A stretch of DNA of 64,000 nucleotides. It comes from Klebsiella pneumoniae (GTDB lineage: Bacteria > Verrucomicrobiota > Verrucomicrobiia > Limisphaerales > SXTU01). Both the position numbers and the translations under genes were made by a program. Below are positions 16,024 through 35,858 of the stretch, in pieces (within the stretch, counting starts at the first letter, position 1; every line of letters begins with the position of its first letter). Location: NCBI GenBank assembly GCA_943330855.2, contig CALQJI020000007.1:1-64000 (forward strand). Reading direction: 5' to 3'. Under the pieces are notes generated by a model. It saw only the letters and a program-made list of their open reading frames with translations, ran no database searches and was not told where the DNA came from.

Positions 16024-16050
16024 TGGAGCGCGGACGCCCACGTCCGCAGC
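16024..16050. repeat. Family A repeat (GGAGCGCGGACGCC), single arm
   Basis: TGGAGCGCGGACGCCCACG then TCCGCAGC, placed directly after the xylose isomerase stop codon. Only the left arm is present here; full copies at 29746, 30601, 44900 and 52125 have both arms. Confidence 0.85.
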
Positions 16051-29745: not shown

Positions 29746-29815
29746 TGGAGCGCGGACGCCCACGTCCGCAGCCCCAAAGGCGTAGCATGCTGCGGACTTA
29801 GGCGTCCGCGCTCCT
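29746..29815. repeat. Family A palindrome between peroxiredoxin and proteasome beta stop codons
   Basis: Left arm GGAGCGCGGACGCCCACGTC then CGCAG; right arm CTGCGGACTTAGGCGTCCGC then GCTCC. The element starts two bases after the peroxiredoxin TGA and its other end forms part of the beta-subunit stop codon, so the hairpin fills the whole space between two convergent genes. It could act as a transcript end in both directions, though it lacks U-runs. Confidence 0.9.
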
Positions 29816-30590
29816 ACGACTTCAACCACTCCGCCTGCTGCGCGTCCGAAATCGTCTCCACCCCAGACGCCCGCAGCACCTTCAACGTCGCGAACGCCTG
29901 CGTGTCCGGGCGCACACCGCCCGTGGCCGAATCGAACTCCGACGCCGTCATCAGCAAGCGCAGCGCGAACTGCACCGCTTGCGACAAGGTCATCTGCGAC
30001 GGACGCGGCTGGCCGTAGCGCTCTTGATAACTGAGCACGCTGCGAATGGTCTGCGAGCCGGAGCCGCTCGTCGCGTAGCCGACCGCTTGGAACTGCGCGC
30101 CGAGCGGGTCGTAGAAGTAAATCTGCGGCTGGTGCGGTTGCACCGTGGTGTCCACGCCGGCAAAGAGCGGCACCACCACGCCGATGCCTTGCATGGTCAT
30201 CGGCAGGTTGTCGCGCAGCAGCCGGGCGAGAGCGCGGACCTTGGCCGGGAGGCTCAACGACTGGAGCTGGCTCCGGCGGTAATACTCGAACGACGTTTGC
30301 AGCACGCGCGCCATCTCGAACGCCGTCGCCGGCACGCCCGCGATGGCCAGCAACGAGTGCGCGTCCAGCTCGATGACCTTGTCCACGCGGTCGGTGACGA
30401 TGACGTTGCCCGCCGTCGCACGCCGGTCGCCGGCCATCAGCACGCCGTCCGCGAAGTGGAAGGCGAAGACGGTAGTGGCTTGCGTCTGCACCGGCGCGGA
30501 CTGCGAGACCTCTCCACGCAAGGGCGACAGGTTGTGCGTGGCGAGCAGCGAGACGAAGTCGCTGGAGATGGGCTGAACTGTGGAGGTCAT
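29814..30590 (-). CDS. prcB: 20S proteasome beta subunit
   Basis: A 258-residue proteasome beta-type subunit. A 38-residue propeptide ends at QA before TTVFAFHF, making T39 the likely catalytic N-terminal threonine. Other active-site elements are LMAGDRRAT (Asp17 equivalent), VDKVIEL (Lys33 equivalent) and ATSGSGSQT (Ser129 region), with ATGGVRPD near the end as in actinobacterial PrcB. It should degrade tagged proteins inside a sealed barrel. It is last in the ARC-exonuclease-Dop-UBact-prcB operon. No alpha subunit gene follows, unlike Mycobacterium prcB-prcA. Confidence 0.94.
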   Translation of the reverse strand: MTSTVQPISSDFVSLLATHNLSPLRGEVSQSAPVQTQATTVFAFHFADGVLMAGDRRATAGNVIVTDRVDKVIELDAHSLLAIAGVPATAFEMARVLQTSFEYYRRSQLQSLSLPAKVRALARLLRDNLPMTMQGIGVVVPLFAGVDTTVQPHQPQIYFYDPLGAQFQAVGYATSGSGSQTIRSVLSYQERYGQPRPSQMTLSQAVQFALRLLMTASEFDSATGGVRPDTQAFATLKVLRASGVETISDAQQAEWLKS

Positions 30591-30600
30591 TTCGATTGAT

Positions 30601-30665
30601 TGGAGCGCGGACGCCTACGTCCGCAGCGGGTGAGGTTTGGGGCTGCGGACGTGGGCGTCCGCTTT
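30601..30665. repeat. Family A palindrome between UBact and prcB
   Basis: Left arm TGGAGCGCGGACGCCTACGT then CCGCAGC; right arm GCTGCGGACGTGGGCGTCCG. It occupies nearly all of the 78-base gap between the UBact stop codon and the beta-subunit start, so it lies inside the operon transcript. It could attenuate or stabilise the mRNA and so set the UBact to protease ratio. Confidence 0.9.
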
Positions 30666-30668
30666 CCT

Positions 30669-30842
30669 TCATTGGCCGGTGCGCTGGCGATACCGTTTGG
30701 CCTGGTCGGGGTCTACCTTCTTCATGCGCTTGAGGAGTTCCTCGACGTTGGGCTTGTCCACCTTCGGCGCGCTGGGGCCGTCGCCTCCGCCGCCGCTGGG
30801 AGTGGGTGTCACCGGGCGGGTCTTTTGGGCTTGGTCGGGCAT
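30669..30842 (-). CDS. ubact: UBact, Pup-like protein tag
   Basis: A 57-residue tag protein. The C-terminus KVDPDQAKRYRQRTGQ and the preceding VEELLKRM match the UBact family of Gram-negative bacteria, and the N-terminal half is disordered (KTRPVTPTPSGGGGDGPS). The start at 30842, four bases past the Dop stop, gives MPDQAQKTRP; an earlier ATG at 30866 would overlap Dop and adds eight residues. It ends in Gln, like mycobacterial Pup, so deamidation to Glu by Dop is expected before it can be joined to lysines of target proteins. It is flanked by Dop and the proteasome beta gene. Confidence 0.93.
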   Translation of the reverse strand: MPDQAQKTRPVTPTPSGGGGDGPSAPKVDKPNVEELLKRMKKVDPDQAKRYRQRTGQ

Positions 30843-30846
30843 AGTG

Positions 30847-32379
30847 TTACTGGCGGACTGTGGCACGGAGCAGTTGGTCGCGCAATTCCGCTGGCGAGTT
30901 GGATGCGGCGATGGCTTGAGCGACGAACGCGATGCGCTCCGGCGCGAACATCTCCAGCAGCGAGACCTTCAACTCACCTTCGCCGCACGCCAGCGTGACG
31001 TGGTCCCACTGCGCAGAAAGCACAGCGGCAGAGAACTTTTGGATGAGCTTGCCGCGAACGAGCGCGCGCGTGGTCTCCGGCGGCTCGAACATCGCGCGCT
31101 GAACCTCGGCCTCCAACGGCACGCCGCGCATCGCGCCGGACTGCTCCAGGCCGAAGTAAAGTCCCTCGTCGAAGTCGAGTCGGTGATATTCGAGGTCGAG
31201 GCTTTGCAGCCACGGGTCGTCGTCCGCGAGGCTTTGTGCCGCTTGGAACTCGCGGAGGAGCGCGAGCTTGGCGACCCAGTCCAGCCGGTCACGGCAGAGC
31301 AGGGGATCGGCTGCGAGGTCGTTCAGCACGACTTCCCAATCGGCTACGAGCGCGGCGCGCTCCGGCGTGGCGACGTCACAGAGTTCCTTCACGGCGGCGA
31401 GATAGTCGCGCTGCACGGCGAGGGCGGTGGAAGGACGGCGGTTCGCCAGCTTCACTTCCCAGCGATAGCGCGGGTCGCGCGAGATGGCGGGGAGCGCGGC
31501 GAGCGGGTCGGCGAGCTGGGGGAAGGCGAGGTGCGGGTCGCGGAGGATGGCTTCGAGCACGAGCGCGGTGGTGCCCACCTTCAGCCGCGTGGCGAAGGGC
31601 GAGAGGTTCGCGTCGCCGATGATGACGTGGAAGCGCCGCCACTGGCGCGGGTCGGCGTGCGGCTCGTCGCGGGTGTTGATGAGCGGGCGCTTCTGCATCG
31701 TGTCCACGCTCTGCAACTCGCTGAAGAAGTCGCTGCGCTGGGCCATTTGAAAGTGCGGTGAGATGAACTTGTCCTCCGCCTCGATGGCGAACTTGCCCGC
31801 GCCGGCGAAGATTTGCCGCGTGACGAGGAACGCCTGCGCCCCCGCCGCCAGCCGCTCCCACGGCAGCGCGCGGGGCAGGAGGTAGTTCTCGTGGCAGCCG
31901 TAGCTGTGGCCGCGGAAGTCGGTGTTGTTCTTGTAGAGCCGCACGGTCGCGCCGCGCGCTTGGGAGAGACGCTGCGCGCAGGCCATCACCACGCGCTCGC
32001 CCGCGCGGTCGTGCGCGACCAACTCGGCGAGCGTGGAGCACTCGGGCGTGCAGTATTCGGGGTGGGCATGGTCGTTGTAGAAGCGCGCGCCGTTGCCGAG
32101 CGCGAGGTCGCTCTTGATTTCGGCGAAGGTCAGCTCGCGGTGCGTGTCCTGCTCGAAGTAATCCGCCTCGTCGAAGTCCTGCCGCAGCTCGGGCACATCG
32201 AACCCCCGGTCGTCGTGGTGCGGGTTCTCGGCCTCGTAATCCCAGCGCATCCGCACACCCGGCTCCATCGCGCTGCGCACCAGCGCGATGGACTCCGCCA
32301 CCACGTCCAAGTCCTCCACGCCATCCCGCGCGATGCCGTATTCGGTCTCAATGCCGAAGAGGATGGGAGGCGGTTCCAT
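30847..32379 (-). CDS. dop: Dop: Pup/UBact deamidase and depupylase
   Basis: A 510-residue member of the glutamine-synthetase-like Pup ligase/deamidase family. The nucleotide-binding GIETEYGI is at residues 9-16, the catalytic Asp region NGARFYNDHAHPEYCTPEC places Asp at 103, and there are LYKNNTDFRGHSYGCHENY (in part) and INTRDEPHAD. The segment RWDYEAENPHHDDRGFDV (45-62) is the Dop loop, absent from PafA ligases, so Dop is preferred. It should deamidate the UBact C-terminal Gln and also remove the tag from substrates. It is 4 bases upstream of UBact. Confidence 0.92.
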   Translation of the reverse strand: MEPPPILFGIETEYGIARDGVEDLDVVAESIALVRSAMEPGVRMRWDYEAENPHHDDRGFDVPELRQDFDEADYFEQDTHRELTFAEIKSDLALGNGARFYNDHAHPEYCTPECSTLAELVAHDRAGERVVMACAQRLSQARGATVRLYKNNTDFRGHSYGCHENYLLPRALPWERLAAGAQAFLVTRQIFAGAGKFAIEAEDKFISPHFQMAQRSDFFSELQSVDTMQKRPLINTRDEPHADPRQWRRFHVIIGDANLSPFATRLKVGTTALVLEAILRDPHLAFPQLADPLAALPAISRDPRYRWEVKLANRRPSTALAVQRDYLAAVKELCDVATPERAALVADWEVVLNDLAADPLLCRDRLDWVAKLALLREFQAAQSLADDDPWLQSLDLEYHRLDFDEGLYFGLEQSGAMRGVPLEAEVQRAMFEPPETTRALVRGKLIQKFSAAVLSAQWDHVTLACGEGELKVSLLEMFAPERIAFVAQAIAASNSPAELRDQLLRATVRQ

Positions 32380-32404
32380 TTAGATAGATTGGGCGAGAGG
32401 GAAA

Positions 32405-34150
32405 CTAGAACCTGTGAGAGTTTCTTGAGTTTACAGAAGGCCAAGCCGGGTAGCCGAACTCTGTGGTCGTTGTCTTTAGGTCGGGTTGAAATTCGCCTTG
32501 GTAAAAATAGCGGTGGCGTCCCAGCCGGACACAGCTTTGGCAAATCGGAGTGCCGAAAAACGGGTGAACCACAGGGATGTCGTGAACGGTCATTCTTGCG
32601 CCACAAACCTGGCAGCAGAAATCGTCGCTAAAACCGGAGCCGGCTACCCAAGTCTTGTGCTTGCGCCAGTAGCGTTCCAGCACGGCATCCAATCCTTGGT
32701 AGAGGCAGTTCCACTCAAAGCAGGTTGCAGAGTTTCCACTCTCGAACAGAGCGTAAATGGTTCGTCTTTTGTTAAAGTTAAGCCGCTTTTTGTAGCCCTC
32801 GCTTGCTGCATTTATTAGTAGGATTTCCTCCTCGGAAGTCGGGTTCCTGAGAATACTCCAACCACTCCCTGATGCACGGCCCAGCTTGAACTTTGCGAAC
32901 AATTTTTCGCGGCTTGGTCTAAAAGGAGCCAATAGATGTGCGGGTTCCAGAGTAGAACTTGGCAACCAATCAAACATCGAGCGCCCGGTTTTCAATTTGG
33001 TGCGGGGCAGCGCGACGCGAACGCTTCCAAGTAGGACAGGGCGACATGAACTCTTGCCTGGAATCGTCTCCCCACAGTTGTCACATCCCAGTCTAAACTT
33101 CCTAAGCTTTCGCGTGTCGCAATCGTAGCTCGGAGAATCTTCCCCTTCTTCGAGAATCCTGCGGAACGACGTCTTCACCATGAACGCGGTGACTGTCTCG
33201 CACTTTTTGCAGACGATTACGGTGTAGCTTGGCCATGTCACCCGCTTCGTGTCGTGCTGGCCGAGTCGTGAAATAATCGCTGCGCGGTGCAGTGGTGACG
33301 GTTCATCAGAGCCCCAGTTTCTTCGCTTCGTTGACCAGGTCTTGAAATCGAGCAGGGGCAGTTGCCCTCGCAAGTAGCCCAAGTCAGCTGCGGCTGGTTT
33401 CCAAGGCCCGATTCCGAAGTTGATGGTCTTAAGTTCAAGGGCGTGAATCCACAAACGGAAGGTCAAATCCAAATCGCGCTCATTGTAGCCGAATAAAGGG
33501 GTTTTGTCCGGTTGCGTTAGGATTTCCTTGAATGGTTTTCCAGACCTGAGTTTTCCAATGTTGAGGTTCACGCGGCCAAGATTCTCTAGCCCAAGACCGC
33601 GATAGTAGCCGATGCAAGCGCAAAGCCAGAGGAACGTGTCCACTGTCCTCGGAATCAACGGCTGTAGGTTGATGACGCTTTCAAGGAAGTAGTAATCGAA
33701 CCCGAAGAGGTTGTGCCCCAAGACTACGTCGAAAGGCTGTTCAAGCCGTGACTGAAGGCGCTTCCAACCCGCTTCAGGCTCGTAATGCTCGTAAGGTGAT
33801 GGTCGATAACCCTCCGCGACTCTGTTGAATTCTTTAACACCGACGAGGACTATTCGGTTGGGGTGGGGGGATTCGTCGAGTTTGCCGGACGTTTCGATGT
33901 CCAGAACCAGAACCCTGTTGGGACGCGACTCAACCGTAGTCGGGACAATCGCGAGCGAGTCAATAGCGCGCACATCCTTTTCGTAGCGACTCAGGCGTGC
34001 CTTTTCTTTCCGCTCCCTCGCCTCCTTCTTCATCTTCAACTGTCGCTCTCGGTAGGCGAGGAACGTATCAAGGTCCAGCGCGAGCGACTCCTTCCTCAAC
34101 TTTGACTGGAGCCTTCGGAAGGCATTGAGCGTCGATGCGTCGAGTTTCAT
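32405..34150 (-). CDS. DEDDy (YprB/DnaQ-like) 3'-5' exonuclease domain fused to two zinc ribbons, inside the UBact operon
   Basis: A 581-residue protein. Residues 1-60 are a basic helical segment. Residues about 78-240 hold an RNase H-fold exonuclease: ExoI VLVLDIETSG (D84, E86), ExoII LGHNLFGFD (N147, D152), ExoIII YNERD (Y222-D226, the DEDDy pattern). Then follow CxxC pairs at C314/C317 and C356/C359, and a second set in FCCQVCGARM and PICQSC near residues 515-540, consistent with two zinc ribbons. The gene is 7 bases after ARC and 25 before Dop, so it is probably co-transcribed. Its base composition is clearly AT-richer (near 50 percent GC) than the flanking genes, suggesting acquisition. 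Substrate (DNA or RNA) and relation to tagging are unknown. Confidence 0.8.
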   Translation of the reverse strand: MKLDASTLNAFRRLQSKLRKESLALDLDTFLAYRERQLKMKKEARERKEKARLSRYEKDVRAIDSLAIVPTTVESRPNRVLVLDIETSGKLDESPHPNRIVLVGVKEFNRVAEGYRPSPYEHYEPEAGWKRLQSRLEQPFDVVLGHNLFGFDYYFLESVINLQPLIPRTVDTFLWLCACIGYYRGLGLENLGRVNLNIGKLRSGKPFKEILTQPDKTPLFGYNERDLDLTFRLWIHALELKTINFGIGPWKPAAADLGYLRGQLPLLDFKTWSTKRRNWGSDEPSPLHRAAIISRLGQHDTKRVTWPSYTVIVCKKCETVTAFMVKTSFRRILEEGEDSPSYDCDTRKLRKFRLGCDNCGETIPGKSSCRPVLLGSVRVALPRTKLKTGRSMFDWLPSSTLEPAHLLAPFRPSREKLFAKFKLGRASGSGWSILRNPTSEEEILLINAASEGYKKRLNFNKRRTIYALFESGNSATCFEWNCLYQGLDAVLERYWRKHKTWVAGSGFSDDFCCQVCGARMTVHDIPVVHPFFGTPICQSCVRLGRHRYFYQGEFQPDLKTTTTEFGYPAWPSVNSRNSHRF

Positions 34151-34157
34151 TCGCCTT

Positions 34158-35858
34158 TTACACTACGCCAGCCGCACCGGAACTTCGCCGCCGCACCGGC
34201 CCGAGCTTCACCACGTTTTCCGGGTCGAAGTCGGTGAGCTTGAGCCAGTCTTCGGTGAGGTCGTTGGCGGGGAAGAGGTCGTTCTCGTCGTGTTCGAGGC
34301 GGAGAGCGGTGAGCAGGTCGGCGCGGGTGAGTTGGGTGTCGCTGGCCTTGGTCTCGATGGCGCGGCGGATGGCCAAGCTCTTCGCGCGCTCGACCACGGC
34401 GGCGATGATGGCTCCGCTGGCGAGGTCACCACGACAAAGAAGTTCGCGGCGGCCGCTGCGGAAGTTCACTTCGGCGAACTCGTTGTCCGGCGTGCGGGCG
34501 AAATGCACCTCGGTCACGGCGCGGGCGAGGTCGGCCTTCGGCTCGGCGAGCGGGAGACTTTCGCGCAGGTAGATTTCGTAGATGGCCTGCGCGCCGGCCT
34601 TGTCGGGACGGCGGACGCGGATTTTGCGGTCAATGCGGCCGGGCCGCAGGATGGCCGGGTCAATCAGGTCCGCGCGGTTCGAGGCGAGGATGACGACGAC
34701 GTTGGTGAGCGGCTCGATGCCGTCCATCTCGGTGCAGAACATCGGCACGAGCGTGCTGAGAATGCTGTTGGACCGCCCGCCCCGGCGCGTGCCGAGGATG
34801 CTCTCGGCCTCGTCAATGAACAGGAACGCCAGCGCGCCGTCACGCGCCCGCTCGCGGCACTGGGCGAAGAGGTCGCGCACCTGCCGCTCGCTCTCGCCGA
34901 CCCACATGTTGAGAATCTCCGGGCCTTTGATGTGCAGGAAAAACTCCGGGTGATCCACGCCGGTCTGCGCCTTGATTTGCTGGCGCAAGTTGTAGGCGGT
35001 GGCCTTGCCGAGGAGCGTCTTGCCGCAGCCGGGCGGGCCGTGGAGGAGAAAGCCTTTCGGCACCGAGTGCTCGAACTTCTTGAACAGGTCGCGATGGAGG
35101 AAGGGCAACTCAATGGCGTCGCGGATGGCGCGCACGGCCTCGTCCTGACCGCCGATGGCCGACCACGGGAGTTCGCTGACGGTCTCCAACGAGCGCTCGA
35201 CGCGCTTGCCGACGCCGATGATTTCGAGCGCGACGCGCTGGTTCACATCGAGCCGCACCTCCATGCCGGACTTCATCTTCTCCTTCGCGAGCAGGGCGGA
35301 GCGTTGGATGACGAAGTTCGTGACGCCGGCTTCCTGGCCGATGCGCAGTCGGCCATCCGAGAGCAGTTCGTCCACGCGGACGATGGGGCCGTTGCGGTCG
35401 AAGCCGAGGCCCTGCACGACGGCGAAGGCTTCGTTGCACAGCACGCGCTGGCCGGCTTGCAGGCTGGCGAGCGGGATGGCCGGGTCCACGCGGCAGACGT
35501 AATCCGTGCCGCCGAGGCAGACGTGGGCTTTGTCGCGGTCCACGGGCGCGAGGAAGGTGCCGACGCGGAAGGCAGGCGAGCGGAGCTTCTCGATGATGGC
35601 GTCCATCTTTTCGAGCGCGGCACGCGCCTGGTCGGACATTTCTTCCAACGACTCGATGCGTTCGCGGAGATAGATGAGGTCGAAGACGGCGACGTCGCGC
35701 GGCGGGAGCTTGCTCGTGATGAGATCCACGAGCTGGAGGGTGGAGAGCTGTTCGAGCTGCTCGCGCGGGAGGAGGTCGGCGAGCGGGGTGGAGGCCAGCG
35801 AAGGCTCGGCGGACGCTTTGTCCTCGCGGGGCAACGGCTTTTTCTTCGGTTCGGCCAT
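34158..35858 (-). CDS. arc: Proteasome-associated AAA+ ATPase (ARC/Mpa)
   Basis: A 566-residue hexameric unfoldase. An N-terminal coiled coil around residues 60-95 (IYLRERIESLEEMSDQARAA in part) would bind the tag. OB domains follow (FRVGTFLAPVDRDKAHVCLG in part). The AAA module carries Walker A GPPGCGKTLLGKA, Walker B LAFLFIDEAES, and LRPGRIDRKI. It should recognise UBact-tagged proteins and feed them to the protease. The C-terminus is RRRSSGAAGVV; the Hb-Tyr-X (QYL) tail that docks mycobacterial Mpa to the core is absent. It is the first gene of the operon. Confidence 0.94.
   Translation of the reverse strand: MAEPKKKPLPREDKASAEPSLASTPLADLLPREQLEQLSTLQLVDLITSKLPPRDVAVFDLIYLRERIESLEEMSDQARAALEKMDAIIEKLRSPAFRVGTFLAPVDRDKAHVCLGGTDYVCRVDPAIPLASLQAGQRVLCNEAFAVVQGLGFDRNGPIVRVDELLSDGRLRIGQEAGVTNFVIQRSALLAKEKMKSGMEVRLDVNQRVALEIIGVGKRVERSLETVSELPWSAIGGQDEAVRAIRDAIELPFLHRDLFKKFEHSVPKGFLLHGPPGCGKTLLGKATAYNLRQQIKAQTGVDHPEFFLHIKGPEILNMWVGESERQVRDLFAQCRERARDGALAFLFIDEAESILGTRRGGRSNSILSTLVPMFCTEMDGIEPLTNVVVILASNRADLIDPAILRPGRIDRKIRVRRPDKAGAQAIYEIYLRESLPLAEPKADLARAVTEVHFARTPDNEFAEVNFRSGRRELLCRGDLASGAIIAAVVERAKSLAIRRAIETKASDTQLTRADLLTALRLEHDENDLFPANDLTEDWLKLTDFDPENVVKLGPVRRRSSGAAGVV

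Follow-up and report, generated by a model that had tools for sequence, protein, structure and literature searches.

A UBact-proteasome system probably split over a verrucomicrobial genome and the aromatic-free C-terminus of its ARC ATPase

The window (the whole stretch of 64,000 nucleotides analysed here) very probably carries part of a verrucomicrobial UBact-proteasome system that is split over the genome and that would operate through deamidation of the tag, its conjugation to substrates and docking of the ATPase by a tail ending in valine or isoleucine, while an exonuclease-like gene lying in the same row would have no role in the pathway. The system belongs to an already known, though little-studied, kind: in 2008 Iyer, Burroughs and Aravind (PMC2588565) described Pup-like proteins of Verrucomicrobia that have G[EQ] ends and are associated with proteasome genes, and both Pfam and NCBIfam have a model for the tag. 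The one surprising feature is the phylum-wide, aromatic-free tail of the ATPase ARC, which is accompanied by retention of the PrcA pocket lysine.

The window locus and the exonuclease-like gene

The features of the locus, and the two partners encoded on another contig (C1) of the same genome (G000), are as follows.

29814..30590, minus strand: PrcB, proteasome beta subunit, 258 aa (PF00227, 9e-27; TIGR03690, 1.6e-45)
30602..30667: palindromic interspersed repeat in the UBact-PrcB gap; second copy at 29747-29814, beyond PrcB
30669..30842, minus strand: UBact tag, 57 aa from the ATG, ending RYRQRTGQ (PF20513, NF033388)
30847..32379, minus strand: Dop, by family the UBact deamidase/de-tagging enzyme, 510 aa (PDB Dop 4b0r, tree)
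32405..34150, minus strand: DEDD-type exonuclease-like gene, apparently inserted, 581 aa, with C-terminal zinc-ribbon cysteines
34158..35858, minus strand: ARC/Mpa-type proteasomal AAA ATPase, 566 aa, ending SSGAAGVV (TIGR03689, E=7e-124)
G000:C1:107245-107964: PrcA, found with a profile of the divergent PrcA
G000:C1:153382-154668: PafA ligase, the second Pup_ligase family protein

The original prediction had described five open reading frames on one strand, and their coordinates, strand and spacing were all reproduced, with gaps of 7, 25, 4 and 78 nt in the order ARC-exonuclease-Dop-UBact-PrcB. It had also named UBact, Dop, ARC and the proteasome beta subunit correctly, as judged by Pfam, NCBIfam, structure matches and a tree; the fifth, exonuclease-like protein matched no Pfam family. 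UBact scored far above the cut-offs of both of its family models (PF20513, E=1e-23, 83.3 bits against 27.8; NF033388, 8.5e-24, 83.5 bits against 35), so that the failure to align with UBact that had been named as grounds for abandoning the assignment did not occur. An alternative GTG start at 30866 would give a UBact of 65 aa, and homologues align from the ATG. Between the window and the sister genome G008 the UBact genes differ at 1, 1 and 12 sites at codon positions 1, 2 and 3, a distribution typical of purifying selection, and the differences in Dop, PrcB and ARC among sister genomes likewise fall mostly at third positions. Judged by these substitution patterns, all four genes are under purifying selection. 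The palindromic repeat, a pair of inverted arms of 26 nt each with 14-16 nt between them, lies on both sides of PrcB, and its core motif recurs at 16030, 44906 and 52174 of the window.

The exonuclease-like protein resembles PHROG DNA polymerase exonuclease families (8.7e-13 and 1.6e-7) and on reading contains the motifs LDIET (DxE), HNLFGFD (Nx3FD) and YNERD (Yx3D). It shares the strand of its neighbours and stands just 7 and 25 nt from them, as would be expected if the five-gene row were one functional operon with the exonuclease linked to UBact, the membership that had been proposed. We nevertheless regard this arrangement as extremely unlikely. The gene has a GC3 of 0.62, whereas the values of the other four lie at 0.81-0.90 (0.89 in Dop and ARC); no homologue was found in 57 relatives, though 24 of them have UBact; a search of 387 genomes of the phylum returned a single marginal match (103 aa, 31% identity, E=2e-4); and the ARC-Dop junction of the sister genome G006 holds different inserts, namely a DnaJ-like gene and another ORF. 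Absence from phage and plasmid records and from viral contigs counts against membership too, and it also led us to drop an origin as phage- or plasmid-borne cargo; a known defence gene was likewise rejected, the protein having no match in PADLOC. Given its foreign composition and the lack of a credible homologue in relatives or phylum, we conclude that the exonuclease does not belong to the system, and on the same sequence evidence the gene is best read as a recent foreign insertion between ARC and Dop in the window's lineage. Recruitment after such an insertion could have followed; with gaps of 7 and 25 nt the gene could be transcribed together with its neighbours.

The core particle and the probable splitting of the cluster

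PrcB has a predicted propeptide of 38 aa followed by the catalytic threonine at residue 39 (QTQA/TTVFAF), and the mature beta chains in the PDB align with it from that residue. Searches with PF00227 detected a single subunit in the window's own genome (PrcB); of the 26 genomes with a proteasome, 24 gave a single subunit. A proteasome composed of beta subunits only was considered and dropped once a divergent PrcA had been found, the window's genome included. In other genomes of the order, the reading frame between PrcB and PafA is this divergent alpha subunit, which matches TIGR03691 at 1e-15 to 2e-23, below the family cut-off, and PDB PrcA at 3e-12. A profile made from it matched 29 of the 58 genomes searched. 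The window's genome encodes both alpha and beta subunits, the latter with a threonine after the predicted propeptide. Each of the 77 PrcA sequences examined has the lysine aligned with M. tuberculosis K52, recognised by pattern in 60 of them and by inspection in the other 17.

A set of 80 public UBact loci, almost all of them in genomes titled Verrucomicrobia, gave ARC-Dop-UBact-PrcB-PrcA-PafA as the consensus order, and 25 of these loci are complete in one run. The six genes are linked in most relatives; in the window's genome PafA and PrcA are present but unlinked. The five genes can consequently not be taken for the whole operon, as had been suggested, with PafA and PrcA on another contig. 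Within the window's genus a peroxiredoxin gene follows PrcB, and PrcA and PafA lie elsewhere wherever the contigs permit judgement, which argues that the cluster has been split in this genus. The genome is a draft (85.75% complete, 153 contigs) with system genes at three places, and some of the apparent splitting could be assembly error; yet PrcB is likewise apart from PrcA and PafA in those sister genomes whose contigs are long enough to show it.

Adjacent to PrcA is a PafA N-terminal remnant of 44 aa (L051:10619-10747, on G000:C1), 59% identical and reading GLKTEYG instead of GLETEYG; the intact PafA is about 46 kb away. This remnant, the missing last residues of UBact in the sister G006 and the absence of UBact, PrcB, Dop or PafA matches in the genomes G009 and G010 would all be accommodated if the system were decaying or non-functional in the window's genus, its cluster broken and its tag shortened in one sister. 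We consider such decay very unlikely: UBact, Dop, PrcB and ARC of the window are intact, with catalytic residues kept and changes mostly at third positions, full-length PafA and PrcA occur in the same genome, and the assemblies of G009 and G010 are just 71% and 80% complete. The G006 tag (L028/L050/L143; C74, about 96987-97150) ends KKVDPAAARIT, without RYRQRTGQ, and the palindromic repeat follows directly after it; either the conjugation tail was lost in nature or the assembly is in error here. Elsewhere, two small ORFs of toxin-antitoxin-like DUF433/DUF5615 type, labelled by reading, lie between PrcA and PafA in another genome (G003:C61, L054:2637-3367), and G057 (C29, C3, C22) has Pup_ligase and PrcA matches in short pieces with no UBact or PrcB match, possibly because the system is decaying or the assembly is fragmented.

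The tag, Dop and PafA

The window's UBact has the C-terminus KVDPDQAKRYRQRTGQ, with the RTGQ end. Among the 80 public loci, 59 tags end in RTGQ, 20 in RTGE and one is truncated, and mapping the Gln/Glu label on the Dop tree requires at least five changes across well-supported branches. The original prediction had called such systems rare outside Actinobacteria. That wording is too strong for the order, in which 25 of 58 genomes (the window's own included) have UBact; in 388 genomes drawn across the phylum the family cut-off was exceeded in just 10.

Dop is well supported by profiles (Pup_ligase, 2.8e-146; TIGR03688, Dop 435 bits versus PafA 329 bits) and by structures (PDB Dop 4b0r, E=1e-102 and 348 bits, versus 206 bits for PafA 4b0t), and its catalytic aspartate, residue 103, aligns with D94 of 4b0r. 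A tree placed it in the Dop clade and not with unrelated glutamate-cysteine ligases, the grouping that had been singled out as fatal to the identification. The PafA clade is separate from the Dop clade (support 96/95) and holds the PafA of the window's genome. For this protein the Dop and PafA profiles give equal scores; it matches PafA structures slightly better than Dop structures and has no Dop loop.

In Dop itself the loop lies at about residues 45-95 (WDYEAENPHHDDRGFDV...NGAR). The Gln end of the tag and this loop had together been taken to predict deamidation. The first element stands: by analogy with PupQ, the Gln end suggests that the window's UBact would be deamidated before conjugation. 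The loop carries no such information. Of the Glu-type loci, 17 have a long Dop ORF; the catalytic Asp motif occurs in all 17 and the loop in 14 by a simple pattern, which left the other three unresolved; since the loop is equally present where UBact ends in Glu, it is no sign of deamidation. According to published work, catalysis does not need the Dop loop, which inhibits depupylation (PMC7947786), and many Pup proteins already have a C-terminal Glu, Dop being kept for depupylation (PMC12288473). Repeated switching between Gln and Glu ends while Dop is kept offers a natural test of whether Dop serves mainly in deamidation or in de-tagging. An ORF that reads as a tricorn/S41-like peptidase (L002:2850-4229, on G000:C1) immediately precedes PafA and shares its strand.

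The ARC tail, the proposed pathway and related clusters

Knowledge of bacterial proteasomes is almost wholly actinobacterial. ARC of the window aligns with PDB Mpa 5kwa (E=1.7e-88) over the OB, AAA and beta-grasp regions, and it lacks an aromatic docking tail of the GQYL/HbYX type. All 48 distinct verrucomicrobial ARC tails end in Val or Ile; 40 of them have Val or Ile in the penultimate position as well, and the last four positions are free of aromatic residues in every tail. The preceding 10-15 residues are variable; the window's RRRSSGAAGVV differs from ARKGERSGVV of its sisters just before the end, with GVV kept. Actinobacterial controls run by the same procedure gave NTGQYL in ARC of Nonomuraea and Tsukamurella, the only tails sampled outside Verrucomicrobiota.

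Mpa and its relatives require a C-terminal GQYL, the carboxylate of which is received by a PrcA lysine (PMC8142254, PMC12288473, PMC8223512). The conserved Val/Ile end suggests, as its simplest reading from sequence, a variant docking tail in verrucomicrobial ARC. We see roughly even chances that docking in these bacteria is distinct, an aromatic-free [S/G]-x-[V/I]-[V/I] tail and the PrcA lysine replacing the GQYL/HbYX tyrosine in step with the diverged PrcA. No description of an aromatic-free Val/Ile ARC tail was found in the literature covered, mostly without subscription journals. The verrucomicrobial systems provide an independent test of the features by which an ATPase opens the core particle; should such a tail work, a penultimate tyrosine would not be a general requirement.

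The UBact system probably tags unwanted proteins for the proteasome. In the proposed pathway, UBact would be made with a C-terminal Gln, which Dop would deamidate to Glu; PafA, encoded elsewhere, would by analogy with its family phosphorylate the Glu side chain and join UBact to substrate lysines. ARC would then bind the tag, unfold the substrate and dock on the PrcA/PrcB core particle, in which Thr39 of PrcB would act as the mature N-terminal nucleophile, and Dop would also strip UBact from conjugates. Docking would probably proceed through the Ser/Gly-x-[Val/Ile]-[Val/Ile] tail of ARC, whose carboxylate, as conservation suggests, would meet the PrcA pocket lysine.

With the Gram-negative UBact system the window's system shares the tag family (PF20513, NF033388), the RTG[QE] end and genes for Dop, PafA, ARC and the proteasome, and its relatives have the six genes in canonical order; the window's system departs from the Gram-negative one in that PrcA and PafA are separate in the window's genus and an exonuclease-like orphan stands between ARC and Dop. 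The actinobacterial Pup-proteasome (M. tuberculosis Mpa, Dop, PafA and PrcAB) has homologous Dop, PafA, ARC/Mpa, PrcA and PrcB, the same logic of a tag with C-terminal Gln or Glu, and the PrcA pocket lysine. The differences are that the window's tag has no match to the actinobacterial Pup profile PF05639, which found nothing in the whole genome while a Corynebacterium control was positive, that PrcA is strongly diverged, and that actinobacterial ARC ends in GQYL with a penultimate Tyr whereas verrucomicrobial ARC has a Val/Ile end without that Tyr. The Pup-like tag of Methylacidiphilum, as described in the accessible portion of PMC2588565, has the G[EQ] end and the association with proteasome genes in common with the window; the same portion makes no mention of ARC tails, cluster splitting or an inserted gene.

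A further type of cluster, combining ubiquitin-type and pupylation-type genes, came to light in G049 in the search for Pup_ligase proteins of relatives; its JAB gene then led to other genomes of the order. It occurs in eight genomes of the window's order (L065, on G049:C193, and L168-L174) and reads E1 (ThiF/E1-like)-E2-(X)-UBL-JAB-ARC-like-Dop-like-PafA-like; E2 and UBL were labelled by reading alone, neither protein having a Pfam match. The seven clusters compared with that of G049 have the same run, one of them stopping at a contig edge and one having a broken Dop-like frame, and a short Pup-like ORF with a GG[QE] end, placed between the Dop-like and PafA-like genes, is present in six of the eight. 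Lastly, an unannotated gut phage sequence (record MT835496.1, 35724-52797; L175) encodes three genes in a row.

L175:4711-7776: Dop-like
L175:7805-7996: 63-aa ORF ending KGGQ
L175:8001-9404: PafA-like
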